A stretch of 64,000 bases of DNA from assembly GCF_022807975.1 (NCBI RefSeq), contig NZ_CP094358.1:2976001-3040000 (forward strand). The letters run 5' to 3'. Position numbers and translations under genes: made by a program. The notes below the pieces were generated by a model. It was not told the DNA's origin, ran no database searches, and worked only from the letters and a program-made list of their open reading frames with translations. Source of the DNA: Abyssalbus ytuae. Its GTDB lineage: Bacteria > Bacteroidota > Bacteroidia > Flavobacteriales > Flavobacteriaceae. Shown here in pieces: positions 1,636-23,159 of this stretch (within the stretch, counting starts at the first letter, position 1; each line of letters starts with the position of its first letter).

Positions 1636-1673
1636 CAATTTTACAGCAATAAAATCTTAGTTAAAAGGACATG
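1636..1673 (-). promoter_or_regulatory. Late promoter-like element P1
   Basis: On the minus strand: CATGTCCTTTTAAC, then 16 nt, then TAAAATTG, then 4 nt, then the ATG at 1631. It is one of six copies in the prophage with the same spacing. TAnnATTG resembles the Bacteroidetes -7 box TAnnTTTG. The upstream block takes the place of the usual -33 element. Transcription would begin at or next to the start codon, so the mRNA may be leaderless. Confidence 0.7.
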
Positions 1674-1722
1674 AAAGTTAGTGTTTAGAAGTAAAAATTT
1701 TAACTTAATTGATAAATAAAAA

Positions 1723-1755
1723 ATACCCTTGCAAGGGAAATAATTGCAAGGGTAT
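1723..1755 (-). terminator. Hairpin terminator after small-gene cassette
   Basis: A perfect 12-bp stem, ATACCCTTGCAA (1723-1734) with its complement at 1744-1755, and a 9-nt loop. It sits just downstream of the 1782-2051 gene. On the minus strand it is followed by a T-rich stretch. It insulates the small genes from the tape measure unit. Confidence 0.75.
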
Positions 1756-1781
1756 CATGTCGAAATTTAAATAAAACAAAA

Positions 1782-2051
1782 TTAATTCTCAGGCTTGTGA
1801 ATACATTCAAAAGTTTTTCCTGAATCTGTCATTACATAAACTGTTTGGTCCTTGTATATTGGAATTGCATGAGAAGTAATAACATACTTTACCACATCTT
1901 TACAAATTTCAGGATCATGTTTTTTACCAAATACACTTTCAGAATAATGATCGAAGTTGTCTTTGTTAAATCTTCTATCAACAACTGAATACCCATCACC
2001 CAGTGATTCATTCATTACACATTGGTTTAAAATTTTTCTTAGTGTGTACAT
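1782..2051 (-). CDS. Small phage protein of unknown function
   Basis: An 89-residue soluble protein with no motif I recognise. Last gene of a three-gene cassette that has a terminator at each end (1723-1755 and 2898-2927). It therefore looks like moron cargo rather than a virion component. About 60 nt separate it from the next gene upstream. Confidence 0.6.
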   Translation of the reverse strand: MYTLRKILNQCVMNESLGDGYSVVDRRFNKDNFDHYSESVFGKKHDPEICKDVVKYVITSHAIPIYKDQTVYVMTDSGKTFECIHKPEN

Positions 2052-2109
2052 AACTGTATATATTTATATATTCTCCTACTCTGTACAGTTTTCGGATTCC
2101 CTGTTATTT

Positions 2110-2310
2110 TTATACGTTTAATGCATTCCACACAAATAATAAAAAACAAATTAATATACCTGAAGAAACTCCTAATGCTAGCCCGGTATAAAAGCCGTGT
2201 TTCTTACCTAATTTATAAAACTTTTCATTTTCATCTCTTACTATTTTAGCATAATTATATTTATTGCCTTTTATAGTTCTTTTTTTTGGAGGTGTTGGTA
2301 AATTTTTCAT
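2110..2310 (-). CDS. Small single-pass membrane protein
   Basis: 66 residues: a basic, Pro/Lys-rich N-terminus, then one membrane segment near the C-terminus (about residues 43-62, Gly-Leu-Ile-Phe rich). Lies in the terminator-bounded moron cassette. Possible roles such as superinfection exclusion are guesses; no family recognised. Confidence 0.6.
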   Translation of the reverse strand: MKNLPTPPKKRTIKGNKYNYAKIVRDENEKFYKLGKKHGFYTGLALGVSSGILICFLLFVWNALNV

Positions 2311-2463
2311 GATTTAAATGTTTTATTCAAAGATAATTATTGATTATCGTATTTCATTGCGGATTACCGTAACGCAACTATAAATAAGTGTAAGAAGTAA
2401 TGTCTAATATTTTTACCTTTTATTAATTATTTCATATAACAAAAAATTGAGTGTTGAATAATA

Positions 2464-2691
2464 TTATTCTATTTTAGTGATTTCATTATTTTCAATTTGT
2501 CCTTTAGCTTCTATAAAATCATTTCCCAAGTGATATTCACAATCGAATTCGTGACCGTCTTCATCTTGTCCAATAACAGTAGCAATCCACCCTCCATACA
2601 AATATCCAAAAGTTGGATAATAATAAACTACTTTAGCATTAAAGCCTTTTTCTTTTAACAGATCAAATAATATTTTTTCGTTTTTAGTCAT
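2464..2691 (-). CDS. Small phage protein of unknown function
   Basis: 75 residues if it starts at the ATG at 2691 (MTKNEK...). An upstream in-frame ATG at 2745 would add 18 residues that look less protein-like. Contains a Tyr/Gly-rich middle and an acidic C-terminus; no family recognised. First gene of the moron cassette. Confidence 0.55.
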   Translation of the reverse strand: MTKNEKILFDLLKEKGFNAKVVYYYPTFGYLYGGWIATVIGQDEDGHEFDCEYHLGNDFIEAKGQIENNEITKIE

Positions 2692-2825
2692 GTTAATTGA
2701 AATTAAATTCCTGGCCTTCAGAAAGTAGATAAAATATACATCCATAGATAAATTTCTATGGCAGACAAATCATGTTTCGTAGTTGATTTTTTCCGTTTAA
2801 TTGTAGAAACTTTTGATGTGTTTTC

Positions 2826-2884
2826 ATATATTTGAAGTGTTCATAATTCACTTCAAATATATAAAAAAATCTACAAAAGTAGAT
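2826..2884. promoter_or_regulatory. Two adjacent inverted repeats, possible operators
   Basis: A perfect 14-bp inverted repeat with a 9-nt loop (arms 2826-2839 and 2849-2862, core TTTGAAGTG) is followed by a small palindrome, TCTAC-aaaa-GTAGA, at 2870-2883. There is no T-run suited to a terminator in either direction. They lie upstream of the moron cassette, so regulator binding sites are plausible. Function is inferred from position only. Confidence 0.4.
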
Positions 2885-2897
2885 TATAGTCTATTAA

Positions 2898-2927
2898 AAA
2901 CCAGGCCTCATATAGCCTGGTTTTTTT
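2898..2927. terminator. Bidirectional terminator overlapping a stop codon
   Basis: AACCAGGC at 2899-2906 pairs with GCCTGGTT at 2915-2922, with A and T runs outside. The TGA stop of the gene at 2908-3387 lies in the loop, so the gene's last codons form one arm of the hairpin. It separates the portal/connector unit from the small-gene cassette. Confidence 0.75.
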
Positions 2928-3387
2928 GTAATATTGTGTAAACAGAAAATTCCAATGCAAACCCGTTAGCTCCTAAATAATCTTGTACCGGGTCTATACG
3001 TATTGAATTAAGGTCAATATCTCTGAATAGACAGTTTTGATTAAAATTATGGTGAAGATCAATTATTTTATTTGTCAATGCCAATATTTCTTCTTGGCAT
3101 AATTGAAAAACGTCAATACGATGATCTGATCCTGCTTTTGCATCCGTTTTTTTGATGATCATAAAAATAAGGTTATTCCTAAATCTTCGGTTATCCTCAT
3201 CTAATATATTTGCATCTGCTGTAGGTATAACCGTAACCAATGTACAATTATTGCCGTCATTGACAGTGTCTTTATATAATTTAGTGAGCTCATCATCACT
3301 GGCCACCATGAAGTTATTTTCAAGGTTTGTTCTTTCTGATACATGCAAATTTGCAAAAGACTGTAAATCTGTTTTAACTAGCAACAT
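2908..3387 (-). CDS. Phage structural or tail-completion protein candidate
   Basis: 159 residues, soluble, unknown family. It overlaps the upstream gene by 14 nt and is the last gene of the portal/connector unit. Position between the connector-like genes and the tape measure is where head-tail joining or tail-completion proteins usually lie. Product named from position only. Confidence 0.6.
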   Translation of the reverse strand: MLLVKTDLQSFANLHVSERTNLENNFMVASDDELTKLYKDTVNDGNNCTLVTVIPTADANILDEDNRRFRNNLIFMIIKKTDAKAGSDHRIDVFQLCQEEILALTNKIIDLHHNFNQNCLFRDIDLNSIRIDPVQDYLGANGFALEFSVYTILQKNQAI

Positions 3388-4285
3388 TTTTTTGATTCCT
3401 TTTAAGTTCGTTTATTTTCTCTATCTGGTTTACCAAAAAAGCCAATACATCATAAGTGTTTTGCTCTGATGTTTCTTTCACATTCCCAAAAACACGCGTT
3501 TCAGCAAGTGAATAAAGTGTACCAACTATACCAATACCTTTAGAGCTTTCTACTGTAGATTCCTGATTAAAAAGAAGGGTTAAATTAATAGTATTTCCAC
3601 CTCCAATATCTAAAGCTTCATTGGTAGCTATAAAATGCTGACAGGAGGCAAAAAAAAGATAAATAGCCCATTTTTCACTTAATGGTAGTTTTGCTATTTT
3701 TTTTGCATATAAAGGGGAAAGGCTCGGGTTAAATTTTCGGCGGGCATCAGATGAGTAATTACTTAAATATTTTCTTATTCTATTAAACCACTTTTTAGGC
3801 CGATATAATGTAGCTATGAGCGTATCTAAATAATGTTGTTCTCCTGTACGGCTATAATCATTAAAAGCAGTGAGTGCCTGTATATATTCTCCATAAACGG
3901 TATTGGTAAGTGCAGATGAGGGTCCGTAATATTTTTTAAATCCAATTTTTATAACCGGTAAAAGTTGGTTGAAAAATACCATGTCAACCTGCTTATGAAT
4001 TTTCCCTTTAATCCGGGTTTCGTTAAAGAATGATTCATTAAGTTCAGATATTCTCATTATATTTTCAACCACAGGTATGTTTTCATCTTTATCAGTATTT
4101 GCAGTGCGGGCCATATTAAGAAATGCATAGGTTAGTTTTACTTTTAACCTGGTAAAAGAAATAGTTCCTCCCATAAATTGAAAAACAAGTCCAGAGAATG
4201 CCAAAAATTGATTTTTGGTAAACTCATACCCGTTTTCCGGATAATATAAAGTTTGTTTTTTATCGGCTATTTCTATACTATGCAT
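3374..4285 (-). CDS. Conserved-type phage protein, unknown function
   Basis: 303 residues, mixed helical, with no signal peptide or clear membrane segment. It overlaps the neighbours on both sides by 8-14 nt, so it belongs to the portal-to-tail operon. Not recognised; a virion or assembly role is inferred from the operon. Confidence 0.65.
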   Translation of the reverse strand: MHSIEIADKKQTLYYPENGYEFTKNQFLAFSGLVFQFMGGTISFTRLKVKLTYAFLNMARTANTDKDENIPVVENIMRISELNESFFNETRIKGKIHKQVDMVFFNQLLPVIKIGFKKYYGPSSALTNTVYGEYIQALTAFNDYSRTGEQHYLDTLIATLYRPKKWFNRIRKYLSNYSSDARRKFNPSLSPLYAKKIAKLPLSEKWAIYLFFASCQHFIATNEALDIGGGNTINLTLLFNQESTVESSKGIGIVGTLYSLAETRVFGNVKETSEQNTYDVLAFLVNQIEKINELKRNQKNVAS

Positions 4286-4607
4286 TTTGAAATTTTCCTT
4301 TTTTTGTTAGTGTCAACCCTCTTTTTTTTAATTCCTCGCCGTGTTTGTTTTTAGCATTTTCAATAACCTGATGATTACTTTTTTTGCTTTTTGAAATAGA
4401 CATTCCAGAATTGAATGCTAATATTTTTTTTTGTTTCAAAAATTTATTAGATGAACTTATTATGTTCATTTTAGTGGCTATTTTTTCAAGCTTTCTTTCA
4501 TTAAGTCTTTTAAACCCTTCCCTAAGTATATATTCCTGACGTCCTTTTTTCGTTAGTTTATAAAAGAACCAAAAGATCGATGAAATAATTTTATTCATTT
4601 TTTTCAA
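4278..4607 (-). CDS. Small basic phage protein, unknown function
   Basis: 109 residues, strongly Lys-rich, with a short hydrophobic N-terminal stretch. Stop overlaps the next gene's start by 8 nt and the upstream gene ends 2 nt before it. The high charge suggests nucleic-acid contact, but no family is recognised. Confidence 0.6.
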   Translation of the reverse strand: MKKMNKIISSIFWFFYKLTKKGRQEYILREGFKRLNERKLEKIATKMNIISSSNKFLKQKKILAFNSGMSISKSKKSNHQVIENAKNKHGEELKKRGLTLTKKGKFQNA

Positions 4608-4609
4608 TA

Positions 4610-5564: not shown

Positions 5565-6926
5565 TTAGTTAGTTGGAATTAGTCTTTGGCTGTTTGTAAT
5601 ATCCTGCTGTCTTTCTGGGGTAGTTCTGTAAAAACCTATTTTAATATTAGTTCCAAATTTGGTTTTAATGACATCATTCAATGCTTTACATACATAATAT
5701 TCCGGTAAGGGTGTTGCCGTTTTTTGATGAATGGCCCACGCATAATATTGTTCAGATCCTGAATCTGATTTTCCATCTGCACCTACATTTGCTAATGCTG
5801 CATGAAGTCCTAATCCTGCCTGAACTGCAAACGCTGCTGTTTCATAAATTTTTATTTGGCTTTCTACATACTCTTTTGTTTTTTGCTCAATAGGCGTTAT
5901 TTTCCATCCATGTTCCATTGCATTTGCTCCTATTAGCTCTACTACATATTCGTTATGCCAAAATTTTCCAACATTTTCTACACCTGATAATAATTGAGAT
6001 ATTTTATCCAAAATCTCTCCTTTTAATTCTTCAAGCATGCTTTCTTTATAATCAATTGGAGGTACAGCTGCCGCACAGTTTTGTTTTATAATGGCCCTTT
6101 TATCTTCCCAAAATTTGGCAGGTGATTGAATGTGCCATTTTATGTTTAGAGAATTTTTTGTGAAGGCACTAAATATTTTAGGAGTATTGGTAGAGTTTTT
6201 CATCCATTCAAGAGATCCGTAAATATCAGGTAGGGGATAGTTTTTAATTCCATAAGTACCAAACTTAGCATAATGAATGGATACCGGATATTTAGATGGG
6301 TTTGAAGAATCATAAATAGGGTATACTCTAAGTTCTTTTTTGTCTTGCTTCACCCAATCTCCCACAATAATATGTGTTGGTATTTTATTCTTATCTGTTT
6401 TTTTATAAGCTAATCTACAATCATATGAACTTATATGTTCAATATTAGCAGATTGAGAGTTATTAACTAATCTTCCGGCACGCTCCCTGAATATTTTAAC
6501 TGTTACTGAATTTTGGAAGTAATAATCTATTGCGTTATTTATAAGTATTTCTTCATAACCTATACTTTCCAACCAATCGATAATATTCTGATCATGAACA
6601 GGCCTCCTAAAGTATTGAGTTCCGTCTATTTCCTGTGTATATAAATAAGGGCCTTGTTCGATCAATAATTCAGCTTTTCTCTTTTGAAGTCTATGAGCCA
6701 ATGAATTTGGTAATACTGCCTCTTGTATTTGCTGAGGAATATCATTTGATTTACCAAAAGGTATTACTTTGAAATCTTCAATGTCCAATGCGTTTTCATG
6801 CCAATCTGAGAAGCTCTCTGTAGTACTTGTACCTCCTGAAGATTCCCGGCCTGTTATCTCAAAATAGTGTAGTGTATTGCCTGATAATGACAAATAATCG
6901 CGTCCGTTAAGTTTATATGTACTCAT
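5565..6926 (-). CDS. Phage portal protein
   Basis: 453 residues. The region around residues 140-300 (repeated strand-rich segments and a Pro/Tyr-rich part), a long central helix before residue 340, and a helical end fit the portal fold of Bacteroidetes phages. A portal forms the dodecameric DNA gate at the capsid vertex and docks terminase. It overlaps the upstream small gene by 4 nt and the DUF6712-like gene follows. Called from architecture and order. Confidence 0.7.
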   Translation of the reverse strand: MSTYKLNGRDYLSLSGNTLHYFEITGRESSGGTSTTESFSDWHENALDIEDFKVIPFGKSNDIPQQIQEAVLPNSLAHRLQKRKAELLIEQGPYLYTQEIDGTQYFRRPVHDQNIIDWLESIGYEEILINNAIDYYFQNSVTVKIFRERAGRLVNNSQSANIEHISSYDCRLAYKKTDKNKIPTHIIVGDWVKQDKKELRVYPIYDSSNPSKYPVSIHYAKFGTYGIKNYPLPDIYGSLEWMKNSTNTPKIFSAFTKNSLNIKWHIQSPAKFWEDKRAIIKQNCAAAVPPIDYKESMLEELKGEILDKISQLLSGVENVGKFWHNEYVVELIGANAMEHGWKITPIEQKTKEYVESQIKIYETAAFAVQAGLGLHAALANVGADGKSDSGSEQYYAWAIHQKTATPLPEYYVCKALNDVIKTKFGTNIKIGFYRTTPERQQDITNSQRLIPTN

Positions 6927-7192
6927 TGCAATACTATTTTAATTCCATTTAATGTTATAATTAGAGGGATGAAGCAACTTCCTAATGTATCATTGATAGT
7001 ATCAATATATTGAAGTTTATAAGCTGAGTTCTTGTCTCTTTCAGATAGTGACTGTCGACGAAGAAGGGCGCGTTCTATAATTTTTTTTGAGCCATTCCTT
7101 TTTATGAACTCTAGCTTGAACGGTATATTCTTAGATGTTAGCTTTCTCATCTCACTTATAGGTGCCTGGTAGTCTGTATATACATCACTCAT
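6923..7192 (-). CDS. Small phage late protein, first gene of portal unit
   Basis: 89 residues, soluble and basic; unknown family. Its ATG lies 4 nt after a late-promoter-like -7 box, so its mRNA may be almost leaderless. The stop overlaps the portal start (ATGA). Confidence 0.65.
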   Translation of the reverse strand: MSDVYTDYQAPISEMRKLTSKNIPFKLEFIKRNGSKKIIERALLRRQSLSERDKNSAYKLQYIDTINDTLGSCFIPLIITLNGIKIVLQ

Positions 7193-7426: not shown

Positions 7427-9154
7427 CTAATGTAGTGATGGATTACTCGTCATAAGTATGCTGTGCCCTTTCAGCTTATTAAGGTACTCTGGTCGACATA
7501 GAAGGTATTTTCCTGCGTCACTCATGTTCGTTGATTTCATTGGTAGTTGATGAACCGGAAGCTTCTCGGATGATTTATCTTTATGGATTGTTTTTTTTCC
7601 TTCCCTGTCTACCCGGATAATCTTCATGGCCTGCTCCATAGAACTTTTCCAGCATTTACAGTTATGTTTATCGATAACGAGTATAGGAAGTCTATCATTT
7701 TTTCCTGACATCATTTCCAACATTAATTCATATTCTGTTTCCTGAAGTATATTTCCCTGGTTTTGGTTCATTAATATTACATTCCATCCTGTTCGGCGCC
7801 CATTCTCATCGTATTCTATTGCCTTTTTAATCTTACTTGCATGATCTTCGCCTACCTGCTTCCATTTATTTGCTGCCCTGTCATGGTATAACCTTAGTTC
7901 TTTTCTTTTATGGTATTTGAAATATTCTACAAAGTTCTTTCCTAGTTCCGGAAGGAAATCAGGAGGAAGGGTCCAAAATTCTTTTAAGCCTCGGTATTGT
8001 TTTCCATGTTCCTGACCAATAACCAGGCTGCACATATTTCCTGTGTCCAAACCTCCGTCTAAAGGCAAATCATGAAGGATATATTTAAGGTCAAGGCTAC
8101 TTTCTATATATTCATCGTTTATTTTGAAATTATCCCTTCGGTCATATATGTATCCGTCATTGAATACATTTTTATAAGAAAAGTTAGGGTAAAACATTAC
8201 TCCCTGGTCTAACTTTGGGGGTATGGAAAGTATAGATACCATGAATTCCCTGAAATCCATAGTTTCCAATAATTTTTTGAAATAGCCTTCTGTTAAAATA
8301 TCAGCATTAACAAATGAACTTACTATGTAAAAAAAGGTAGTGTCCTTACGAAATAATCGTAATCTTTCTTCCCATCGCTTCATGCTTTTTTCAGCATTTT
8401 TAAATTTCCTTTTAGCGGTGGTATCTGCCGGATTATCATTATATTTTTTTTGAGTGTTGATGTAACGGATCCTTTCTTTATTTACTTCTATGGCCAATTG
8501 AACAAGAGTGCGTATTTTTTCTTTATCCATATTATCAGCCATACGCATTATCCAGTCATGCTCTCCCTGATTAGGGTTTGGCATATCAGTAGTGAATGTA
8601 TCGCCGCCATAAAATGGGGATTTACCAAAACGTACATACTCACCACGCACTGCAGGTGTTACTTTATTTAATTTTTCTTCTTTTAAATATTTTGCTTCAT
8701 CTCCCATATGATGCTGGAATGAATCACCGGCACCAATAGAAGGCCTGTCTTGAGAGATTATTTTAAAATGGGTGCCTGTAAATGCGGTGACAGTGTGTTT
8801 CCAGTTAAGTACAGGTTTATATGGAAGTTTAAAATGTTTTGGCGGGCGGGCATCAACTACAAAATGAATGTCTTCAATCCATCCTTTTCGTTTCCATCCC
8901 TCAATAATACTTGGAACAATATTTTTAATGGCATTCATGTATGAATCAGAAGAAAAAGCCACAAATGCCCCAGGCATTTCGTAAGCTATATCCATGGACC
9001 TTTCAGCTAATATATCGGTTGACTTTGATGTTCCACGGCCACCAATAATATAGATGTTTGTAGGTTGTATAAGATTCACAAGCTGACTGAACCAATTACT
9101 ATACCTTAACTCAACAGATTCATTATCCTTATCAACTGTCTTTCTTCTGCTCAT
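7427..9154 (-). CDS. Phage terminase large subunit
   Basis: 575 residues from the ATG at 9154; a TTG 9 nt further upstream is also possible. Walker A is GGRGTSKS at residues 38-45, and a Walker-B-like GDEAK follows in the ATPase half. The C-terminal half carries acidic nuclease-type residues (LDTGN, YHDRA). It is the packaging motor that cuts and translocates concatemeric DNA into proheads. It overlaps the preceding gene by 23 nt. Confidence 0.9.
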   Translation of the reverse strand: MSRRKTVDKDNESVELRYSNWFSQLVNLIQPTNIYIIGGRGTSKSTDILAERSMDIAYEMPGAFVAFSSDSYMNAIKNIVPSIIEGWKRKGWIEDIHFVVDARPPKHFKLPYKPVLNWKHTVTAFTGTHFKIISQDRPSIGAGDSFQHHMGDEAKYLKEEKLNKVTPAVRGEYVRFGKSPFYGGDTFTTDMPNPNQGEHDWIMRMADNMDKEKIRTLVQLAIEVNKERIRYINTQKKYNDNPADTTAKRKFKNAEKSMKRWEERLRLFRKDTTFFYIVSSFVNADILTEGYFKKLLETMDFREFMVSILSIPPKLDQGVMFYPNFSYKNVFNDGYIYDRRDNFKINDEYIESSLDLKYILHDLPLDGGLDTGNMCSLVIGQEHGKQYRGLKEFWTLPPDFLPELGKNFVEYFKYHKRKELRLYHDRAANKWKQVGEDHASKIKKAIEYDENGRRTGWNVILMNQNQGNILQETEYELMLEMMSGKNDRLPILVIDKHNCKCWKSSMEQAMKIIRVDREGKKTIHKDKSSEKLPVHQLPMKSTNMSDAGKYLLCRPEYLNKLKGHSILMTSNPSLH

Positions 9155-9773
9155 AGCTGTCAAATAATTCTTTAGGCTCTAAACCGGCTTCTCTCTTTAT
9201 CCTTACCTTTTCAGACTCGAGTATGTTCATTTCATCTACATACTGTCCAAGAAGGTGCCTGTTTGTTTGCGGAAGGTCTTCAAAGTCTGAAGTATCAAGG
9301 CTATACACTTTTGTAGGTTTGTTAAAGGCTTCGTCTGGTATTCCGGGATCTTCATCTTTATCTAATCCTTTTACCCGGTAAGCTCGTTCTATAATAATAG
9401 AAGCCTTGTTATAATCGTCTACTGTTTTTGCGGAAAGTATAGCGGCATCTGCCAATTGCAGTAGTTTCTCAAACAGAGCGTTTCTCCATGAATCCTTCTT
9501 TACCTTGTCGTCAAGGTAAAACCATGTCATAGCATCTTCAAAACGTGATTTGGCAATGAGCTCATTAATATTGTATGTGAGGCTTAATTTTTTTATTATT
9601 TTTTGAGGACTATTGACAGAACGCCATAGGGCATTTATAAAATTTAACTGATCCAGGTATTCTACCATTTCATCAGGTAAAGTCTCTGTTTTTCCTTTGT
9701 CTACCCAATCCTCTAAAATAGAAAGGTGAATGCCTTCTAGTGCAGATTCTTTATTTGTTTTTTTTTTTGACAT
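9132..9773 (-). CDS. Terminase-unit protein of unknown function
   Basis: 213 residues, acidic and helical, no clear DNA-binding motif. Lies between the terS-like gene and terL, overlapping terL by 23 nt. It could be a packaging accessory factor or a second small-terminase domain. No family recognised. Confidence 0.65.
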   Translation of the reverse strand: MSKKKTNKESALEGIHLSILEDWVDKGKTETLPDEMVEYLDQLNFINALWRSVNSPQKIIKKLSLTYNINELIAKSRFEDAMTWFYLDDKVKKDSWRNALFEKLLQLADAAILSAKTVDDYNKASIIIERAYRVKGLDKDEDPGIPDEAFNKPTKVYSLDTSDFEDLPQTNRHLLGQYVDEMNILESEKVRIKREAGLEPKELFDSYEQKKDS

Positions 9774-9781: not shown

Positions 9782-10102
9782 CTATAATCCGAATATTGTT
9801 TGTTTTATGTCTTCAAACCTTCTTTCTTCTGATTTTTTATCATGCTGTTGAATTGCAGTTATACTCCCTTCTTCAATTTTTTCCAAAAGCTTTTCGGTTT
9901 TTTTTAGTTCAATGTCCAAACGTCCTTTTTCATAAAATTGTCTTATTTGGCTGTTTTGGTCCCTCCAAATATGCATGAAACTTTTTTTATCAAAACCAAG
10001 CGCCAAGGCTATATCACTTGGCGCATAATTTTGAGAAGCCATTGTTTCAATGGTTTCAAAGTCGGAAGGGGTTATATTTTCTGCTATTTTCTGTAAAGAC
10101 AT
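9782..10102 (-). CDS. Terminase small subunit-like protein
   Basis: 106 residues. Residues about 12-45 form a helix-turn-helix of the terminase small subunit style (alanine-rich first helix, recognition helix near residue 40), followed by a long charged helix for oligomerisation. It precedes terL by one gene, the expected place for the DNA-recognition subunit. Stop-start overlap of 1 nt with the upstream gene. Confidence 0.65.
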   Translation of the reverse strand: MSLQKIAENITPSDFETIETMASQNYAPSDIALALGFDKKSFMHIWRDQNSQIRQFYEKGRLDIELKKTEKLLEKIEEGSITAIQQHDKKSEERRFEDIKQTIFGL

Positions 10103-10998
10103 TATCTTTTACTCAAAACTTTTTTTGCGTGTTTTAACAAGTCTTCGTCCCTCTCTACCAATTCAGTATTTTCTTTTTTAGTATTACGGGAAATGTTTGC
10201 TTCCAATGCATTTATTTTTTTTGTAAGGTCTACCGTATTCATAAGGGTTATTTCTTCCTTTAAAGCAATCCTTTCAAAAACAGGATGTTTTCCTAACACA
10301 TCACCAGTGGTTTTATAATGTTCAAGCTCATCCCATGCTTGCTTATTTTTTATATAGTTTTGTAGTATTATATCGGCCAGTTGTTTAGATTTTACTGCTG
10401 ATAATGCCTCGTGTAATTTTGGCTGGTTTGTTTTGAAAATCTCATACGTAGTGATAAGATCATTTACAAGTATTTTTAAGGAATCAGGACATCCTGGTTC
10501 TCCAAGGAAAGGAAACTGTTCCCGTAGTTTTATAGATGCTTTCTGGTCATCAGGCAACTCTTTAAGCTGTTTTTCTATTTCAATTTTACGGGCAGATTCA
10601 AGTGTAGCAAAAATATCTATCTTTTTTCTTGACGGAGATTTTAACCCAAGTTCTTTAATCAAAACTTTTGCTTCGCTATAATCAGTTTCTGTACTGAATT
10701 TTAACAACTTATCTTGTGGGGTTAAAACTTCCTTTGTAATTATAACTTCGTTTACTGTTACTTGCGGTTTATGATCAACCTGTTTTTGAAGAAGTATATT
10801 AAGGTTTCTTTCCGGAATACCTACTAACTTTGCCATTTCATAACATAACCGGTGTATATTGGCTGGGGTATTTGTCATACGGGCAAAAGTTTGCTGTATT
10901 GCAAGGTTTTTACCTGGTAGTTTGTTATAAAGGTTCCGGCCACCTAACAAGGACCGATCTGTTTTTATGTAGTGCTCTACCTGTTTTTTAGCGTCCAT
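10102..10998 (-). CDS. Late phage protein of unknown function, first gene of terminase unit
   Basis: 298 residues, helical, Lys/Glu-rich. It starts about 25 nt after late promoter P3 and leads the terS-terL operon. No family recognised; a packaging-associated role is inferred from operon position. Confidence 0.65.
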   Translation of the reverse strand: MDAKKQVEHYIKTDRSLLGGRNLYNKLPGKNLAIQQTFARMTNTPANIHRLCYEMAKLVGIPERNLNILLQKQVDHKPQVTVNEVIITKEVLTPQDKLLKFSTETDYSEAKVLIKELGLKSPSRKKIDIFATLESARKIEIEKQLKELPDDQKASIKLREQFPFLGEPGCPDSLKILVNDLITTYEIFKTNQPKLHEALSAVKSKQLADIILQNYIKNKQAWDELEHYKTTGDVLGKHPVFERIALKEEITLMNTVDLTKKINALEANISRNTKKENTELVERDEDLLKHAKKVLSKR

Positions 10999-11023: not shown

Positions 11024-11061
11024 CTAATGTAAAAAGGTGTAACTACACTTGAAAGGACATG
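11024..11061 (-). promoter_or_regulatory. Late promoter-like element P3
   Basis: Minus strand: CATGTCCTTTCAAG, 16 nt, TACATTAG. One base of the block and two of the -7 box differ from the other copies. A 25-nt leader separates it from the ATG at 10998. Confidence 0.6.
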
Positions 11062-13990: not shown

Positions 13991-16150
13991 TTATCCTCGT
14001 TCTACTTCTACAAACTTGGCGCCGTTATAAACTACTTTAAGATAAGTACCGTTTGAAGCAGTGAATGAACCTGTAAGTAAGAAGTTACCAGAGTTTGCAA
14101 CTGTAGTAGAGTTTGTATCGCTACCTCCCTCTATAGTGTAGGTTTCTCCTTCTATTGCATTTTCAATATTTGTTAATGCAGTAGCTCCTGAATTAGCCGA
14201 TGTTACAAAGTGTGTACCATCCTGAGCATCGGCCGTAGTGGCATCACCAGCTAAGGTTACTTTTTCTGTAGAAGAAGCCTCGGAAGCTATAGTTCTTGAA
14301 TACTCCAAAAACTTATCTCCGGCAACTGCTATAAGTACCAACACATTTCCTTTATTAAGCGGGAAGTTTCCTCCATCCAACAATAAATCTGAATTTGAAA
14401 CCACGGTAGATATATTGGTTTCAGCATCACCATATAGGTAAATATAATCTCCTACGGTAGCATCATCAATATCTGTGATGTTTGTAGGGGCAGTATTATT
14501 AGAACCAATTTTTAATGCTTTATGCTCTGTTACTGACGGAGTGGCATCATTAGCTGCTACCGGAACATATACATCGGTTAATAAATCTACCTTATTGGAG
14601 AAAAATATCTGATCTTCATAATCTATTTCTGCTGAAGGATCTACTTTTGCACCAAATGCTTTGAAGAATACACCTAACTTATAGTCTGCAAAGAAGTTGA
14701 TAATTCTTTTTGTATATTCAATAGTGATAATACCTTCTTCACCAGGACGATCAACCATAAGGCCTATATTGTCATCGGTAGTAATATACATAAACCCGGT
14801 ACCTTCTAACTGTGCATGTTTTACAAACTCAATATTAGGAAAATCCTCTACGTGGTTTGCAATACGCTCGTAATCCATATATACACCTTTAGATTTTTCA
14901 CGGCCATCAATGTACCACCGGTGAACATCGTTCCCTAATCCTAATTTTAACCCGGGCATGTTACGAACATCAATCGGAAGTTTATTCTCCACCCAATCCT
15001 GTATAACATCGTATGCGTTTACAGAATTAACTTTTGGAAGGTCATGAGACTTATAGTCAACATCCATATGCTTACTTATAAGTTTCAAGAACCCATCCAT
15101 TGAGTTTAAGAAACTACCGGCTTTATCAGGTTGTAAAGCAGGGTCTGAATAAACACCTTTGAAAACAGAAATTTTATCTTCCTTCCTGGCTTTTTTGAGT
15201 ATTTCACCTATTAAATATCTGGCAAAACTTTCTTTATATGGAGTAGAACCTTCATTAAAGAACATGTTTAACCATGATTTTTCAATAGACTTAAGTTCGC
15301 TGGCCTGCCACTCACCATCTATTTGTTTATCAAATATTTTATTGATAACAGGTACAAACCTTTGCTTGTTTTTTGGTAGCCATTCTTTTTTAAAAGCCTG
15401 GGTAATCTCTCCTGAAACAATAGATGTAAATACGTATTGATCCTGAACGTTACTTACCACCGGCCAGTGAGCAGGGATGTCGTATCCATCCATAAGAAGG
15501 CTCATTATTTCATTTGAGTTCCTTCTGTAATAGGCGCCAAGGTCTTCGTTAAGTTTATCAATATTTACTTTATCCCAAACCGTAGCTGCTGACGGTTCTA
15601 TTTTTCCGGAGGCTGCTCTCTTGTTCCATGGCCTTTCTAATGAATCCCATGAATTTCCGGAGGCAAAAAGGTGAGTTTTTGAATGTGTTACTGAGTTCAT
15701 TTTTTTATTTTCTTGAGTAATTAATGCCTCCGGAACATCATCTTCCGGCAACTTTTTTAATTTTTCGTTATCAGCTGCTAACTGAGCGTTGGTTTTTAAC
15801 AGGCCTTCTGCTTGTTTCACCATATCGCGTAATTTTGAAGCTAAGGTTTTTTCGTCTGCAGTTGGAACTTCTGAAGGTTCCGGATCTTCTTCCTGTTCTG
15901 ATGCTGGATTAACTCCTGACGCTTTCATTTTTTCCATGAATTCATCATAGTGCTTCTGAGCTTCCTCATTGGCTTTTAAGTATTCTTCGTTATAATACTT
16001 CATGAATTGTTCGGCAAATCCGTCTTTGCCGGTTTCAGCGTCGAGCTTCTTTTTTTCCTCTTCAGAAAAATCAAGCTTTTCTTTTGCCCCGGGTTCAAAG
16101 CCCATAAAGGCAGCTACCGTAGGCAAAAACTTTAAAAAAAGTTCTTTCAT
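13991..16150 (-). CDS. Scaffold-capsid fusion: phage major capsid protein
   Basis: 719 residues, long for a capsid protein. Residues 1-150 are charged and coiled-coil-like (Glu/Lys-rich) and look like a scaffolding domain removed by the upstream protease. A proline-rich linker follows, then the capsid core to about residue 530. The last ~185 residues hold two copies of a beta-rich module (about 535-620 and 636-719) shared with the neighbouring tail protein. It would form the head shell. Confidence 0.75.
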   Translation of the reverse strand: MKELFLKFLPTVAAFMGFEPGAKEKLDFSEEEKKKLDAETGKDGFAEQFMKYYNEEYLKANEEAQKHYDEFMEKMKASGVNPASEQEEDPEPSEVPTADEKTLASKLRDMVKQAEGLLKTNAQLAADNEKLKKLPEDDVPEALITQENKKMNSVTHSKTHLFASGNSWDSLERPWNKRAASGKIEPSAATVWDKVNIDKLNEDLGAYYRRNSNEIMSLLMDGYDIPAHWPVVSNVQDQYVFTSIVSGEITQAFKKEWLPKNKQRFVPVINKIFDKQIDGEWQASELKSIEKSWLNMFFNEGSTPYKESFARYLIGEILKKARKEDKISVFKGVYSDPALQPDKAGSFLNSMDGFLKLISKHMDVDYKSHDLPKVNSVNAYDVIQDWVENKLPIDVRNMPGLKLGLGNDVHRWYIDGREKSKGVYMDYERIANHVEDFPNIEFVKHAQLEGTGFMYITTDDNIGLMVDRPGEEGIITIEYTKRIINFFADYKLGVFFKAFGAKVDPSAEIDYEDQIFFSNKVDLLTDVYVPVAANDATPSVTEHKALKIGSNNTAPTNITDIDDATVGDYIYLYGDAETNISTVVSNSDLLLDGGNFPLNKGNVLVLIAVAGDKFLEYSRTIASEASSTEKVTLAGDATTADAQDGTHFVTSANSGATALTNIENAIEGETYTIEGGSDTNSTTVANSGNFLLTGSFTASNGTYLKVVYNGAKFVEVERG
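13994..14548 (-). repeat. Tandem protein module repeat at the capsid C-terminus (a third copy in the tail gene)
   Basis: Two about 85-residue copies (roughly 14291-14548 and 13994-14245) share the pattern DAT..., an NI/ITD-type turn, Y-I/T, a GN-F core and an F(V/L)E end. The tail gene's C-terminus (about 13121-13399) carries a third. They appear diverged at the DNA level, so they are domain duplications, not recent copies. Confidence 0.6.
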
Positions 16151-16174: not shown

Positions 16175-17047
16175 TTAACTAAATATTAAAGACCTGCCTG
16201 CGGCAAGGAGCTTTACTTTTTCAATAGCAGCATTTAGATTTCCAATGCCATCAATTAAACCGTTTTTTAATGCGTCATCCGCATAAAACATTCGACCATT
16301 TAAAATTCCATCTACATCAGTGTCCAGGTTTTTACGGTGCTGCTTTACAAATTTTTGAAACTGCTTTGCTAAAGGATTAAGCATTTCTTCCTTTATAGAA
16401 TCATATTCTCCATTTAAAGCTTTTTCAAATGGTAAGTTTTTATGTGTGGACTGATCTGCATATATGGTATGTATTTTTATACCTTCCTTTTCATAATATC
16501 CTTTTACGTCAGCGAATTCTATCATAACACCTATGCTTCCAAACATGGCAGATATGTTGTTTTCTGCCATAATATAATCTGTAGCGCTGGCTACATAATA
16601 ATTAGCCGAGGCACTTATATCTGCAATAGCTACTACGGGCTTTTTTCTTTTGCTTAAAAAATCTAAATAAGGTGATATTGAAGAGACAGAACCTCCTCCT
16701 GAATCCATTCTCCATATCTGGCCTATGATATTTTCATTTGCTTCAAAATCTTCGGCAAAACCTACTAGCTCATCAGCTCCCCAAGAGCAAAAGTCTCCAT
16801 ATTTGATCATCGGGCCCATTATAGATACAATACCTATACTTCCCTCCGGTATATCTTCTTCACTGGAAATTATTTTTCCTTCAGGAGTTCGTGCCTCACG
16901 GATCAATACGGCATCAGGACGCGGGTCAAAATCTGATTTTTTTTTAGAGGTTATTTTTAAGGCAACATCTAAATATTTTAAGGCTGTTTGGGGTTCAATG
17001 AACCATGAACCTCTAAGTATTTCTGAAGCAGTACGAGAAAAAATCAT
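16175..17047 (-). CDS. S49-family prohead protease (SppA/ClpP fold)
   Basis: 290 residues. Contains GGGSV after the first strand, an ISASANYY motif with candidate nucleophile Ser147, GSIGV, and a downstream Lys (about 203) that could serve as base, as in SppA. The role would be processing scaffold and capsid during head maturation. It precedes the capsid gene by 24 nt. Downstream of P4, with a leader of about 28 nt. Confidence 0.85.
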   Translation of the reverse strand: MIFSRTASEILRGSWFIEPQTALKYLDVALKITSKKKSDFDPRPDAVLIREARTPEGKIISSEEDIPEGSIGIVSIMGPMIKYGDFCSWGADELVGFAEDFEANENIIGQIWRMDSGGGSVSSISPYLDFLSKRKKPVVAIADISASANYYVASATDYIMAENNISAMFGSIGVMIEFADVKGYYEKEGIKIHTIYADQSTHKNLPFEKALNGEYDSIKEEMLNPLAKQFQKFVKQHRKNLDTDVDGILNGRMFYADDALKNGLIDGIGNLNAAIEKVKLLAAGRSLIFS

Positions 17048-17173: not shown

Positions 17174-17212
17174 TAATGACATAAACGAACGCCTGTTTTT
17201 AAAAGGACAATG
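17174..17212 (-). promoter_or_regulatory. Degenerate late promoter-like element P5
   Basis: Minus strand: CATTGTCCTTTTAAA, 16 nt, TGTCATTA. One base is inserted at the upstream end and two changes lie in the -7 box. It overlaps the stop codon of the gene at 17199-17771. Probably a weak upstream companion of P4. Confidence 0.45.
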
Positions 17213-17771
17213 TTTGGACATATTTTTCTAATAGCATACTATTCTTATTATTCGCGTTGTTTTTATGTCTTTGAAACATCTTGAAAAAATTCTCAAGACT
17301 CTTATTTCCTAAGTTGACGTTGTTTTTTTGTAAGAATGTCTGAATAGCTGCTTTGCGAATTCCTTTTCTTTTTTGGTTTTCCTCCCACCCGTTTTTTCTA
17401 TGTGCATATTCGGCACCGTCAACAAAATTTATAAGTGAGTAGTCAAAATGATGTTTTATCATTTCCATAATGTTGTTCATTTTGCTTTCTTCAATAAAAA
17501 GAAAATGGCGGTCGCCCCTTACAGATCCTGAATAGTTATTTCCTATAAAATTTGAAATTTTCAAATAATAATCATCGAGGTTGGTGTGTTTTATTTTTTT
17601 TGATTGCTTATCTATAGAGGTGATTATTATTTTACCTATATCTGAAGACCTGTTTATTTCAATAGTTTTAATCCCGTTGATTATTTGTATTTCTGATTTT
17701 ACAAGGGAAGAAAAATAGCTGACCAAATATTCCGGAGCCGGGAAATGTATTAATTGAAAGTTATCTGCCAT
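17199..17771 (-). CDS. Unknown soluble protein between lysis and protease units
   Basis: 190 residues, basic, Lys/Asn-rich C-terminus. No signal peptide or membrane segment and no recognised family. Its stop TAA is shared with the P5 element. Preceded by a 55-nt gap from the lysis cassette. Confidence 0.6.
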   Translation of the reverse strand: MADNFQLIHFPAPEYLVSYFSSLVKSEIQIINGIKTIEINRSSDIGKIIITSIDKQSKKIKHTNLDDYYLKISNFIGNNYSGSVRGDRHFLFIEESKMNNIMEMIKHHFDYSLINFVDGAEYAHRKNGWEENQKRKGIRKAAIQTFLQKNNVNLGNKSLENFFKMFQRHKNNANNKNSMLLEKYVQTLSF

Positions 17772-19296: not shown

Positions 19297-19637
19297 TGTG
19301 GCCTGTTTAATGTTAAACTATACAATTCGTCATATTTTTTACGTAAGTCCATATAGCTTTTAAGATTTTCCAAATTCTCTTTGGCACAGTTTTCAATTTC
19401 TTCCTGAATCCTGGAATTATTATTATTGACCATATCAATAAATCTAATATTATCGCTATCACGTAAGGCTTGAAGTTCATCTATTTTTTTATTCTTTTTG
19501 TCAATACTTTCATATAACCTGTACTTGTCGGATATATGATACCAATTCGTTACAATAAGAACTGTTAAAAGGAGAAATACCAATTTGTTATTAGCATCTG
19601 TTTTAAAAAAAAACTTTATGATCTCAGTCCAGTTCAT
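19293..19637 (-). CDS. Inner-membrane coiled-coil protein, i-spanin-like
   Basis: 114 residues: one membrane segment (about 18-33), then a long coiled coil with Asn/Glu/Lys. Matches an i-spanin outline, the inner-membrane half of the envelope-fusion step in lysis. Overlaps neighbours by 4-14 nt. Confidence 0.6.
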   Translation of the reverse strand: MNWTEIIKFFFKTDANNKLVFLLLTVLIVTNWYHISDKYRLYESIDKKNKKIDELQALRDSDNIRFIDMVNNNNSRIQEEIENCAKENLENLKSYMDLRKKYDELYSLTLNRPQ

Positions 19638-19941
19638 CGGCTAAATTCCCCAACTTTATCAATGATGCAACGATAACACATGCTATTATGATTACTTCGT
19701 ACCAATAACTATAATTGGTATTGGTAAAATGACATATCAAGCCCAGTATGTTCATTCCCAATAATGCAATTAAACAAGCTTTTTGATAAAAGTTGTAATA
19801 GTCTATTGATAGCATAGCTATGCATGTAAGAATTGAATACCCGGATACATTACCAATAAAATGATAATGGTAATCTATAAAGTTGGCAGAAAAGGATACT
19901 GTCAACATTAATGTGGGTATTATTCTTAAAATTTTATACAT
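19624..19941 (-). CDS. Small multi-pass membrane protein, holin candidate
   Basis: Best start is the ATG at 19941 (105 residues: MYKILRI...); an ATG at 19986 in the same frame is less likely because it adds a charged non-membrane stretch. Three or four hydrophobic segments. With the gene upstream it may form a holin/antiholin pair. Unknown family. Confidence 0.55.
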   Translation of the reverse strand: MYKILRIIPTLMLTVSFSANFIDYHYHFIGNVSGYSILTCIAMLSIDYYNFYQKACLIALLGMNILGLICHFTNTNYSYWYEVIIIACVIVASLIKLGNLADELD

Positions 19942-20221
19942 CCCTTTTTTCTTTGTTTTCAGATTTAACACCTCCACCAGGTACATGTGCTAATTCTTCT
20001 TTTTTTGCATAAACTTCTCCGTTGGCTATCAGTATTTCAACCATTTCTAATGAAAATACTATCCATCCTATTATTAAATCCTGTATGCCATCATCTAATC
20101 CAAATTTGGTAAATGTGTCTTTTAATAATGCTCCAGCTAATAAAAGATATATTACCTTTTTAGCTTTCCTAAACCATTTAGGGGCCGGTCTATTAATATT
20201 TTCTTTAACTTTTGAAATCAT
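19934..20221 (-). CDS. Holin-like membrane protein
   Basis: 95 residues: two membrane segments (about 22-38 and 45-66) with basic ends and a charged C-terminal tail. First of the lysis-type cassette, directly after the tail fibre gene (3-nt gap). Holin identity inferred from size, topology and position. Confidence 0.6.
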   Translation of the reverse strand: MISKVKENINRPAPKWFRKAKKVIYLLLAGALLKDTFTKFGLDDGIQDLIIGWIVFSLEMVEILIANGEVYAKKEELAHVPGGGVKSENKEKRDV

Positions 20222-20224
20222 GTT

Positions 20225-21967
20225 TTATTCGTTTGTTATATAAGTTGTTGTTATCGTAGTCGTTCCTGACGAAGCTACTTCAAAGGCTGGCATAACAGGA
20301 CTACCTAAAACATTATTAAATGCGTTTTTATAATAAAATATTATATTATCAGAAGATATTTGAGCAGATACAACATAAAAATCTGGTGCATTAGCACCTA
20401 AAGCAAAAGTACTAACATAAGCAGAACTAGTTGATGCAGCTGAATATGGTAAATTAATTAATCTAAGTTGACCAGATGGAGTACCAGAACTAGTTACACC
20501 TGATATTCTTATATTTATAGTAACTTGATTACCTATTCTACTATATGTACAATCACAAGTAGAACTATATGTTACTCCACCTCCTGAATCTGCAAAATTA
20601 CCACTAAATGTACCTGTTTCATATAAAAGTGTTGAATTATCTATTTCATTTTGTACCCATTCATTGGTAGTCAAAGATTTTGGATCTAAGTCAATCTCAG
20701 ATATGTCTAATTCAGGAGCTAATACTCTACCATCATGAAATACACTTAAACCATCTTTTCTTTCTACTGGAACGCCATCAAACAAACCAATACCGACATT
20801 AAATACCCTATTAGCATCTTCATGTGTTGTTTGAGAACCTAAAGAACTTGTTGTACTATAGTAACCTACTAAAGTTTCAGACAAATTAAAAGTAGTATTT
20901 CCTCTACCGCCTAGTATAACGGATAAATTACTATTAGCATTATTATCTAAACCTGAATATACTCCAGATTGGTTACCTGATGCTGAATTTGTGTTTCCTC
21001 CAATAACAATAGCATCAGCTCCTGAAGATGCATTGTTATTTCCAGAATAAACACCGCTTTCTACTCCTGATGCTGTATTTGTCTGCCCACCAACAGCTAC
21101 AGATCTAGCAGCTAAAGCAATAAGTGTACTTCCAGCGAAAGTACCTGACCTATCAGCTAATGCTCTACCACCAGCTCCACCTACAGAAGCTGAATTCATA
21201 CCAGATGCTTCATTATTCCAACTAGTTGCAAAAGATCTTAGTCCAGTTGCACCTAAAACAGAACTAGTCACAGTTGAAGTAGATAAATCAATAGCATCTA
21301 AACCTATGTTACCATAGTTGTTTGCATCTCTATTTATTAATCTCCATCCATATCCATTTCCTTCATCTATAGCTTCTAAACCTGAAGAAGAAATTATTGG
21401 TTTAAAATCAGCAACACCATTAGTAGCATCTGTAAGAGTTAATACATAATCATCTTGTGCTATAGTATTTATTACATCAGGTGTATTTAATCTAAAAGAA
21501 GTAGGAGCATTTATGATGAAATCATTATTTCCTAGTAAAGTCGTAGATATACCTTGAATAGTAGTAGGGCCAGAAGTTGCATTTAAATTAATATTACTTG
21601 TTGTTGCTGAAAAACTTCCTGGGCTAAAAATATAATTCGATTCACCGGTTAAAACAAAACTTGAGTTATTAGACACGTTAAATACTACGTCAGAACTTAT
21701 ATCTCCACCTAAATCATATTTATTTGTATTGAAAGTTGTACCATTTCCATCTATAAATTCTATCCCTTCCAAACCTATCCATTCTGTACCCGTCCATTGG
21801 TAGTATTTTAAATCTTCACAGTCATAATATACCTGGCTAACTCTTGGTGAGGATGGTGGATCTGATTTACAAATAGTGAAATAACCATCAATAAGTGGTG
21901 ATGGTTGAACTTGTGAATAAGTAATTATAGAGATCAATAAAAACAGTATGTATATATTTTTTTTCAT
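20225..21967 (-). CDS. Large secreted tail fibre-like protein
   Basis: 580 residues, starting with a clear Sec signal peptide (MKKNIYILFLLISIITYSQ). The middle (about 240-370) is low-complexity Ser/Gly/Asn repeats of the type SGVYSG...NN...GG, similar to trimeric beta-roll heads of YadA or to fibre shafts. The end is beta-rich with two Cys (CDC). Third-position A/T is high. A fibre with a signal peptide is unusual for a virion protein made in the cytoplasm. Confidence 0.65.
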   Translation of the reverse strand: MKKNIYILFLLISIITYSQVQPSPLIDGYFTICKSDPPSSPRVSQVYYDCEDLKYYQWTGTEWIGLEGIEFIDGNGTTFNTNKYDLGGDISSDVVFNVSNNSSFVLTGESNYIFSPGSFSATTSNINLNATSGPTTIQGISTTLLGNNDFIINAPTSFRLNTPDVINTIAQDDYVLTLTDATNGVADFKPIISSSGLEAIDEGNGYGWRLINRDANNYGNIGLDAIDLSTSTVTSSVLGATGLRSFATSWNNEASGMNSASVGGAGGRALADRSGTFAGSTLIALAARSVAVGGQTNTASGVESGVYSGNNNASSGADAIVIGGNTNSASGNQSGVYSGLDNNANSNLSVILGGRGNTTFNLSETLVGYYSTTSSLGSQTTHEDANRVFNVGIGLFDGVPVERKDGLSVFHDGRVLAPELDISEIDLDPKSLTTNEWVQNEIDNSTLLYETGTFSGNFADSGGGVTYSSTCDCTYSRIGNQVTINIRISGVTSSGTPSGQLRLINLPYSAASTSSAYVSTFALGANAPDFYVVSAQISSDNIIFYYKNAFNNVLGSPVMPAFEVASSGTTTITTTYITNE

Positions 21968-21969
21968 AA

Positions 21970-22656
21970 TTAGAATATTGTTATAAATATTTCGGTTCCT
22001 GTGAATATCAATGATGATGCATTGTTAATAGTTAATTCATCTGATGAAAAACTATATTGAGAAGGCCTTAGTGCTATATTACCTATTACGACTATCAAAG
22101 AATTAGCCGGTTTTGATAGCGTGAAAACTGATTGCCCGTCTGATGATGCTATTAGCGTCTGTTGTATTATTTGTGGCTGACTTGTCGGAGGTGATTTTCT
22201 TCCTGATTGTTTATATATACCTTCGTCCCAATACCATATATTGCCTGCATCTAAACTTATGTATAACTTTCCTGGTTGCCCGGTAGTCGGTAAGGATGGA
22301 TCATTGGCAACAAATATTATATTTTCCTGATAACCTGATATTTCCCATAACATGCTAGATGAATTATATGTGGCTACCTGTGGATTAGATATTCCATCAT
22401 CTATAATTGCATAATCATTTGAATTTTCAGGGCCATCAGGATAAGAGTTTTGAAGTACTGTAAGCGAAATGAACGAGCCTATATTTGTTCGGTTTGACCC
22501 TATATTAAGAATATCCAATATTTGATCTACCTGGTCTGCAGCAGCATTAAATTTATTTTTTATTTCGTTCGCTTCTGTTGCAAAAAATTTTTTTATAGAA
22601 TCCGGGTCTGTCTGAACATTTGTTTTATCCGGATATGTGATTTTTTCTATTGCCAT
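21970..22656 (-). CDS. Tail fibre or baseplate protein
   Basis: 228 residues: a short helical N-terminus, then glycine- and serine-rich beta segments. Overlaps the upstream structural gene by 1 nt and precedes the fibre gene by 2 nt. Likely adaptor between baseplate and fibre; family not recognised. Confidence 0.6.
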   Translation of the reverse strand: MAIEKITYPDKTNVQTDPDSIKKFFATEANEIKNKFNAAADQVDQILDILNIGSNRTNIGSFISLTVLQNSYPDGPENSNDYAIIDDGISNPQVATYNSSSMLWEISGYQENIIFVANDPSLPTTGQPGKLYISLDAGNIWYWDEGIYKQSGRKSPPTSQPQIIQQTLIASSDGQSVFTLSKPANSLIVVIGNIALRPSQYSFSSDELTINNASSLIFTGTEIFITIF

Positions 22657-23117
22657 TATGCTACTTTAAAATCAAAAGTATAATCGAACTGATCTAAAAT
22701 AATTCCATCATTTTCTGATTGATTATTAATAAATACCGGTATTACCGGTGAACTATTAGTAAAATTTAATTGATGACCTGAATCTTTGTCATAGCTGGTG
22801 TTTAATTCCATGGGAAACTCTAAAGGGGATATCATATAAACATCTCCGTTATCAAGTTTTATAAATACATTATAAACACCCCTGGATAGTTGATTAAATT
22901 GTGAAAAATCAGAAGTTGAAAGTCCGGGATATGATATAGTCAATGTTTGCCGGTTAAGGTTCCCTGAGTCATTATGTGAATATGATATATTATGCCTTAT
23001 TTTGCTTGGAGTATGATAAATACTTGTTAAAGATGATAGGTCTACAGTATCATCAACAGAACGTATTTGTACTAAACAAATGTTCTGAAAAAGGGAAGTA
23101 TTTTTTCCAAGTTCCAT
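22656..23117 (-). CDS. Phage structural protein, first gene of fibre unit
   Basis: 153 residues, beta-rich; no recognised family. Its ATG follows late element P6 by 4 nt, so its mRNA may be leaderless. It leads the fibre-lysis unit. Confidence 0.6.
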   Translation of the reverse strand: MELGKNTSLFQNICLVQIRSVDDTVDLSSLTSIYHTPSKIRHNISYSHNDSGNLNRQTLTISYPGLSTSDFSQFNQLSRGVYNVFIKLDNGDVYMISPLEFPMELNTSYDKDSGHQLNFTNSSPVIPVFINNQSENDGIILDQFDYTFDFKVA

Positions 23118-23121
23118 GTAA

Positions 23122-23159
23122 CAATGATAGCTACATATTGTTTGCGTTAAAAGGACATT
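23122..23159 (-). promoter_or_regulatory. Late promoter-like element P6
   Basis: Minus strand: AATGTCCTTTTAAC, 16 nt, TATCATTG, 4 nt, ATG at 23117. Geometry identical to P1 and P2. Confidence 0.7.

Follow-up and report, generated by a model that had tools for sequence, protein, structure and literature searches.

The window analysed here, a stretch of 64,000 nucleotides (nt) from Abyssalbus ytuae (contig NZ_CP094358.1, positions 2,976,001 to 3,040,000), carries part of a prophage of ~42.5 kb, whose presumed late gene units are preceded by a shared 12-bp element and whose early genes include one for a GerE/LuxR-type protein. The prophage lies between two 18-bp direct repeats: a candidate attR at 35806–35823 and its partner 42.5 kb leftward, at window position -6730 and thus outside the window, where it adjoins the integrase gene; no tRNA was found in the window. 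Read from right to left, the gene order is CI-like repressor (34296–34709, plus strand; phrog_147, phrog_8 and phrog_4), a small protein in the Cro position (33874–34134, minus strand; no family match), the GerE/LuxR-type protein (33024–33620, minus strand), primase, helicase-methyltransferase and the late genes. The latter include a protease (16175–17047), assigned by phrog_53, and a presumed capsid protein (13991–16150), whose closest named relative is that of Cellulophaga phage Ingeline (67% identity), followed by those of Flavobacterium phages laban and 6H, all Duneviridae. Relatives of the LuxR-type protein also include that of Polaribacter phage Leef (Helgolandviridae).

We found that the full element, i.e., (A)TGTCCTTTTAAC followed by exactly 16 nt and then by TAnnATTG, occurs in four perfect copies on the minus strand, at 1636, 7197, 17076 and 23122. 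The initial annotation had listed six copies, and all of them exist; the other two, at 11024 and 17174, match 15 of the 19 consensus letters, against 19 of 19 for each perfect copy. A search of 100 Markov-model windows on both strands gave 91 sites at a score of 15, nine at 16, one at 17 and none above. The scores of the four perfect sites are far above those expected by chance, and those at 11024 and 17174 are not significant by score alone. The best conserved part of the element is TGTC; that the element starts with TG was overlooked in the initial annotation. In the 4,365,036-base genome the exact pattern has four matches, all within the window, while the reversed control has none, and a looser pattern, TGTCCTTTT-N19-TAnnnTTG, recovers the same four genome-wide. 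A host regulon is thereby ruled out, as the matches of the looser pattern are confined to the prophage, and scattering of the motif outside late gene starts, named in the initial annotation as contrary evidence, was looked for and not found.

The candidate late promoters, counted from the TGTC element to the -7 box, are all on the minus strand. P1 (1636–1671, box TAAAATTG) precedes open reading frame (ORF) 1251–1631 and the tape-measure gene, P2 (7197–7232, box TAACATTG) precedes ORF 6923–7192 and the portal gene (5565–6926), P4 (17076–17111, box TATCATTG) precedes the protease and presumed capsid genes, and P5 (23122–23157, box TATCATTG) precedes ORF 22656–23117 and those that follow it. An intrinsic-terminator-like hairpin with a T run (23160–23190, minus strand) ends 2 nt ahead of the P5 element. 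The weaker P3 (11024–11059; TGTCCTTTCAAG, box TACATTAG) precedes ORF 10102–10998 and subsequent ORFs, among them a presumed terminase (7427–9163) that gave no Pfam match. We count P3 as real though weak since its element recurs at the homologous gene in four relatives, with an imperfect box each time (TATATTCG in Ingeline, TACATTCG in G001, TACTTTCG in G003 and TACATTAG in G004). Of the unit names given initially, protease/capsid, portal and tape measure hold by homology to annotated Ingeline genes, while terminase and fibre-lysis derive from gene order or weak matches.

The sixth copy (17174–17209, minus strand) was rejected as a promoter: it has no -7 box, and TTG-TCC-TTT-TAA are the final codons (Leu-Ser-Phe-stop) of ORF 17199–17771, whose homologues end in LSF or LSL in Ingeline and G001 and in VSL in G003. 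Ahead of the protease, two elements 96–98 nt apart are found in five cases (the window, Ingeline, G001, G002 and G003). The upstream one coincides with the last part of the preceding gene in all but G002, where it lies just beyond that gene, and in each of the five it lacks a -7 box; G004 has no upstream member.

The downstream box, whose resemblance to the Bacteroidetes -7 box the initial annotation noted, is that of ordinary sigma-A promoters of Bacteroidota: TAnn(T/A)TTG is exact in P1, P2, P4 and P5 and imperfect in P3. Bacteroidota sigma-A promoters (TAnnTTTG) additionally carry a -33 TTG box. The -33 position is occupied by CCTTTTAAC in P1, P2, P4 and P5 (compared by eye), so that the usual -33 box is indeed replaced; instead, the candidate promoters have a TGTC-led 12-bp element at a strict 16-nt spacing, which in the host genome is found in the prophage only. 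Because the -7 box is that of the host, a new sigma factor is unnecessary.

Relatives were collected from IMG/VR as 17 loci found via the LuxR-type protein and 30 via the protease, and were then fetched as records (designated below by G and L numbers). The promoters recur at the corresponding five units, i.e., 1251–1631/tape measure, 6923–7192/portal, 10102–10998, protease/capsid and 22656–23117, in Ingeline, G001 and G003, and at four of the five in G004. Thus, P1, P2 and P3 have homologous sites in all four of these relatives, P5 has them in Ingeline, G001 and G003, and P4 likewise has homologous sites; P2 also has counterparts with other forms of the element ("words") in laban, 6H and G018. 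If sites with a good box are considered, the phage's own word marks four of the window's units in laban and in G033, three in 6H, and two each in G018 and G022. In the relatives the box follows TGTC at a distance of 28 nt, except in 6H and G036, where this distance is mostly 27 nt. With this motif search in related prophages, the proposal of a phage-specific late promoter class is strongly supported by location at late units, fixed spacing, absence elsewhere in the genome and conservation.

The words are characteristic of phage lineages. We observed TGTCCTTTTAA in the window, Ingeline, G001 and, with variation, G004; TGTCCTCTTAA in G003; TGTCCTTTTTT in Leef, G010, G030 and others; TGTCCTATT in G025, G026 and G028; TGTCACA in laban, G009, G017, G022 and G033; and TGTCTTAA in 6H, G018 and G036. 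In G011, where the word is TGTTACA, four of 21 TGTTAC occurrences have a box at 28 nt. The scan for words ahead of -7 boxes did not recover those of laban, 6H and Leef, which were found by eye in the upstream regions; in Leef, two of six elements pass the box threshold. Since a word change is repeated across the promoters of one phage, a trans-acting reader is called for. As a separate observation, the in-register box upstream of 2515 and 10572 in Leef (L008) is CATCTTGC, closer to the F. psychrophilum SM5 box TAnnTTGY, as given in the available text of PMC9723704, than to the sigma-A box.

We then scanned 256 tetramers at 49 distances ahead of strict TAnn(A/T)TTG boxes in 31 records (1,232,204 bases; G020, whose LuxR-type protein duplicates the 6H one exactly, was dropped). 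GTCC@27 came top (46 vs. a mean of 3.7 at other distances), followed by TGTC@28 (48 vs. 6.3), TCCT@26, CCTT@25 and CTTT@24. These five share one register and range from 21.8 to 7.6 standard units, the sixth-ranked tetramer, GAAG@17, reaching 5.6; as the records are related (e.g., G025 and G026 are close relatives), the counts are not independent events. When 395 genomes from the order of the host were searched, the LuxR-type protein turned up in eight, including the genome of the window itself. Of the remaining seven, six (all but G143) were examined, together with the two named loci that a genome-collection scan yielded. In these eight new loci pooled, GTCC@27 (11 vs. 1.4) and TGTC@28 (11 vs. 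2.1) rank first and second of all words. After L244 was dropped from the count, its protein and site being equal to those of G003, three of seven new prophages have four to six in-register TGTCCT sites (five in G164, six in G378 and four in G362).

For the position of the start we used 119 sites from 30 records, selected by word class, by a box scoring 6 or higher at a distance of 27 or 28 nt, and by the presence within 130 nt of an ATG that begins a frame of 50 codons. G020 was dropped here as well, as was G011 on account of its word, and some of the 119 are likely false (e.g., 6973, 17725 and 25515 in G003, 20126 in G004 and 1321 in G022). An ATG lies exactly 4 nt past the box at P1, P2 and P5 in the window, a feature that the initial annotation did not mention, and at 30 of the 119 sites (18 records), compared with 9 of 788 control boxes. 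According to the available text of PMC9723704, the sigma-A box of F. psychrophilum occupies -12 to -5, and leaderless transcripts make up 5.5% of its mRNAs. Taken together, the ATG register and this box position predict that transcription from such sites would start on the A of the ATG, giving leaderless mRNAs, and that the element would lie at -40 to -29; by the same register the -7 boxes would be located as in Bacteroidota sigma-A promoters. Furthermore, a terminator-like hairpin is found at most 60 nt upstream of 34 of the 119 sites, often touching the element, vs. 4 of 105 control positions, so the late units look like terminator-promoter cassettes. Short repeats across a phage genome can also serve in packaging, replication or recombination. 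That the elements are such sites and not promoters seems extremely improbable, given their fixed distance to a sigma-A box, a strand that agrees with gene direction, their location ahead of gene units, the upstream terminators and the fixed ATG register.

As for the candidate reader, the LuxR-type protein has a GerE helix-turn-helix (HTH) that exceeds the Pfam cut-off (PF00196, E 5.1e-11), with a structure match of Z 12.6 over 64 residues. The AlphaFold2 model built with 25 homologues has a predicted local distance difference test score (pLDDT) of 92.9, and PDB matches of the whole model lie essentially at residues 130–198, to the HTH domains of GerE, VraR, NarL, RhlR and TraR. These LuxR/NarL-type regulators thus share the GerE HTH with the phage protein, in which, in contrast, neither a receiver nor an autoinducer-binding domain was detected by Pfam or by structure, an absence of match that is not proof in the case of the latter. 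The N-terminal 131 residues alone (pLDDT 90.8) reached no better than E 1.1 in Foldseek and had no match with Z of at least 2 in VIA, which does not show a new fold.

Two further readings of the protein are to be considered at this point. The LuxR genes of Duneviridae and Helgolandviridae, including those of Ingeline and Leef, which are homologues of 33024–33620, are described as quorum-sensing regulators in the available text of PMC8776804. According to this reading, which also draws on the LuxR-type HTH, the protein links induction to host density and reads the promoters only with a signal, or else something other than it reads them. We consider this quite improbable, as the N-terminal domain has no credible PDB match and the quorum-sensing receptors among the whole-protein matches align almost solely over the HTH, although the protein may still bind a ligand. 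Since the N-terminal domain gave no structure match, the published label, as far as the available text goes, may derive from the HTH alone. GerE HTH and sigma region 4 have similar folds, and the HTH segment (residues 134–197) matches phrog_3282, a PHROG named sigma factor (E 4.6e-8), so that a phage-encoded sigma-like factor might read the whole promoter. This, too, appears very improbable: the match is limited to the HTH part, sigma region 2 was found in the LuxR-type protein neither by Pfam nor in structure searches with the models, and the -7 box is that of host sigma-A. Of the two options offered by the initial annotation, an activator or a sigma-like factor, the former is therefore favoured.

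The link between this protein and the promoters comes from co-variation. Motif distance tracks HTH distance with r 0.36–0.44 (Mantel p 0.0005–0.0015; five record sets of 16–23 records). The partial r is 0.37–0.43 after removal of protease, capsid, terminase or portal distance, and 0.27–0.35 after removal of the LuxR-type protein's own N-terminal distance; protease, capsid, terminase and portal themselves give r -0.02 to 0.12. Helix types, sorted by eye, agree with the words: all nine B-type proteins (laban, G009, G011, G018, G020, G022, G033, G036 and 6H) go with non-CCT words, and 11 A-type proteins (window, Ingeline, G001, G003, G004, G025, G026, G028, G029, G030 and Leef) go with CCT, as do the five of a third type (G008, G010, G015, G034 and G035), G015 weakly. 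His171 is found in 10 of these 11 A-type, one of five third-type and none of nine B-type proteins.

We therefore consider it reasonably probable that the elements belong to activator-dependent sigma-A late promoters of a temperate Duneviridae-related phage, read by the GerE/LuxR-type protein 33024–33620, with word and activator changing together. Each promoter would consist of a Bacteroidota sigma-A -7 box (-12 to -5) and the phage-specific element, to which the protein, encoded among the early genes, would bind; it would then recruit host RNA polymerase by contacting sigma-A where region 4 would sit. Such contact is proposed to account for the rigid 16-nt spacing. Each phage lineage would change the element across its late promoters together with the activator, so that one phage has one word.

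Several observations weigh against this reading, and some of them speak for another reader. GerE-type proteins usually bind paired half-sites as dimers, unlike the one asymmetric element seen here. In a set of 21 families, three exceed the HTH correlation on their own records, namely 22656–23117 (0.53 vs. 0.37), the Cro-position gene (0.51 vs. 0.32) and the repressor (0.44 vs. 0.24), and two tail genes equal it. In turn, 10102–10998 reaches r 0.58 on 16 records (HTH given 10102–10998: 0.22, p 0.02) and 0.25 on 22. The HTH keeps p < 0.05 beside all members of the set except its neighbours, the Cro-position gene (p 0.095) and the repressor (p 0.16); therefore, the test indicates the early regulatory region and not firmly one gene. 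G017 has an A-type protein (making 11 of 12 A-type with CCT), nearest to those of the window, Ingeline and G003 and with Tyr at 171, yet its promoters carry TGTCACA, and its capsid and protease genes are nearest to those of B-type phages. This fits a reader adapted to imported promoters, but also a different reader. Of the other four new prophages, G152 yielded a single site, and G328 and L243 yielded none in the 20 kb examined; G223 (B-type helix) carries two CGTCACA sites that emerged only when its own words were scanned.

The distribution of the protein is likewise ambiguous. It occurs in 26 of 28 records, all but G002 (an 18-kb fragment) and G012, which is mostly selection: nine were found via the protein, 12 were fetched for having a match, and for the remaining five (the window and four named phages) its presence was already established. 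In this same biased set, BLAST detects the repressor in 11 records, the Cro-position gene in 10, primase in 16 and integrase in 23, and within it no other early regulator is as widespread as the LuxR-type protein. Less biased counts come from the 24 records identified via the protease, where it was detected at E ≤ 0.01 in 12; restricted to the 12 records of at least 40 kb, the figure is eight. The capsid protein led to 23 Flavobacterium/Cellulophaga records, many near-identical, and tblastn detected the LuxR-type protein in 20 of them. By hidden Markov model (HMM) it was found in 2A and not in F7. In Bacteroides phage BT-TP2, a Porphyromonas phage, G006 and G012, TGTCCT promoters are present and a LuxR-type protein was not detected, and G005 (IMG/VR) has such promoters together with a 134-amino-acid N-terminal and Cys-rich part at 30425 (E 3e-7) that ends ahead of the HTH. 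Similarly, F7, G019, G021 and G023 retain 6H promoters with no LuxR-type protein detected; these may be defective or incomplete, and the F7 annotation has no LuxR-type, CI or primase gene. Promoters of this kind imply either remote homologues or another reader in those phages. BT-TP2 (gp8; L197:5501–5989) and the Porphyromonas phage (L198:10115–10585) have, by eye, a similar small protein just upstream of the protease. Neither has a PHROG match; a gp8-type protein is a possible regulator where the LuxR-type protein was not found.

From these data one may argue that the promoters are real and phage-specific, and that they are read by the Cro-position protein, 22656–23117, 10102–10998 or an unrecognised protein, the LuxR-type protein being merely linked. 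The correlations of the three named genes, the loss of HTH significance beside the Cro-position gene and the repressor, the promoter-bearing phages in which the LuxR-type protein was not detected, and a G017 word that follows the late module and not the LuxR lineage all favour such a view. However, the Cro-position and repressor families are detected in just 10 and 11 of the 28 records, 22656–23117 and 10102–10998 sit behind late promoters themselves, which is awkward for a first activator, the correlation of 10102–10998 drops on the larger record set, and the HTH stays significant beside the remaining families. We regard a reader other than the LuxR-type protein as rather unlikely. By HTH co-variation, the LuxR-type protein, suggested with a "perhaps" in the initial annotation, is still the best candidate, with the qualification that other genes co-vary equally or better and that some promoter-bearing phages have no full-length homologue.

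Activator-dependent late or middle phage promoters are known from Mu Mor/C, P2 Ogr and T4 MotA, and MotA boxes replace the -35 box. The design is alike in that a phage-specific box stands upstream of the host -10/-7 box at several operons, and the promoters of the window indeed share one box at several late operons that is absent from the rest of the host genome. The differences, on a comparison of promoter design, lie in the protein family (no Mor/C or MotA family appeared in our Pfam and PHROG searches), in the combination of TGTC with a lineage-specific part and in starts that would often be leaderless. We found no description of late promoters or of a late activator for this phage group in searches of the open-licence literature. 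The word "promoter" is absent from the main text of PMC8776804 and PMC7077304, and "phage" as a word start is absent from the main text of PMC9723704. The homologous genes presented as quorum-sensing regulators in the available text of PMC8776804 are here read as putative late activators.

It is conceivable, at somewhat less than even chance, that a large set of temperate phages of Bacteroidota has a single late-transcription machine in common, i.e., a GerE-type protein with an unmatched N-terminal fold and a single TGTC-led site that replaces the -33 box and hands over to sigma-A. Its lineage-private words would be switched together, a quarter of its promoters would be leaderless by design, and the "quorum-sensing LuxR" genes would be late activators. 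The present results predict exact transcription start sites and suggest a role as late regulators for genes currently labelled quorum-sensing LuxR. They also offer a natural activator-promoter series (TGTCCTTTTAA, TGTCCTATT, TGTCACA, TGTTACA and TGTCTTAA) for studying how the specificity of a regulator and its regulon changes jointly, and the pairs could serve as orthogonal expression tools in Bacteroidota.

Two further observations concern the prophage genes of this host. At window positions 23751–28221 we noted a cluster encoding nucleoside deoxyribosyltransferase-like, PAPS-reductase-like and helicase-methyltransferase proteins, which might be involved in phage nucleotide or DNA modification. 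Elsewhere in the source genome, at positions 3300722–3300961 (L214), there is a 105-amino-acid homologue of the N-terminal part of the LuxR-type protein alone, adjoining an 88-amino-acid ORF that by eye resembles the Cro-position gene and a repressor-like ORF; the arrangement resembles a degraded early region from another, related prophage.

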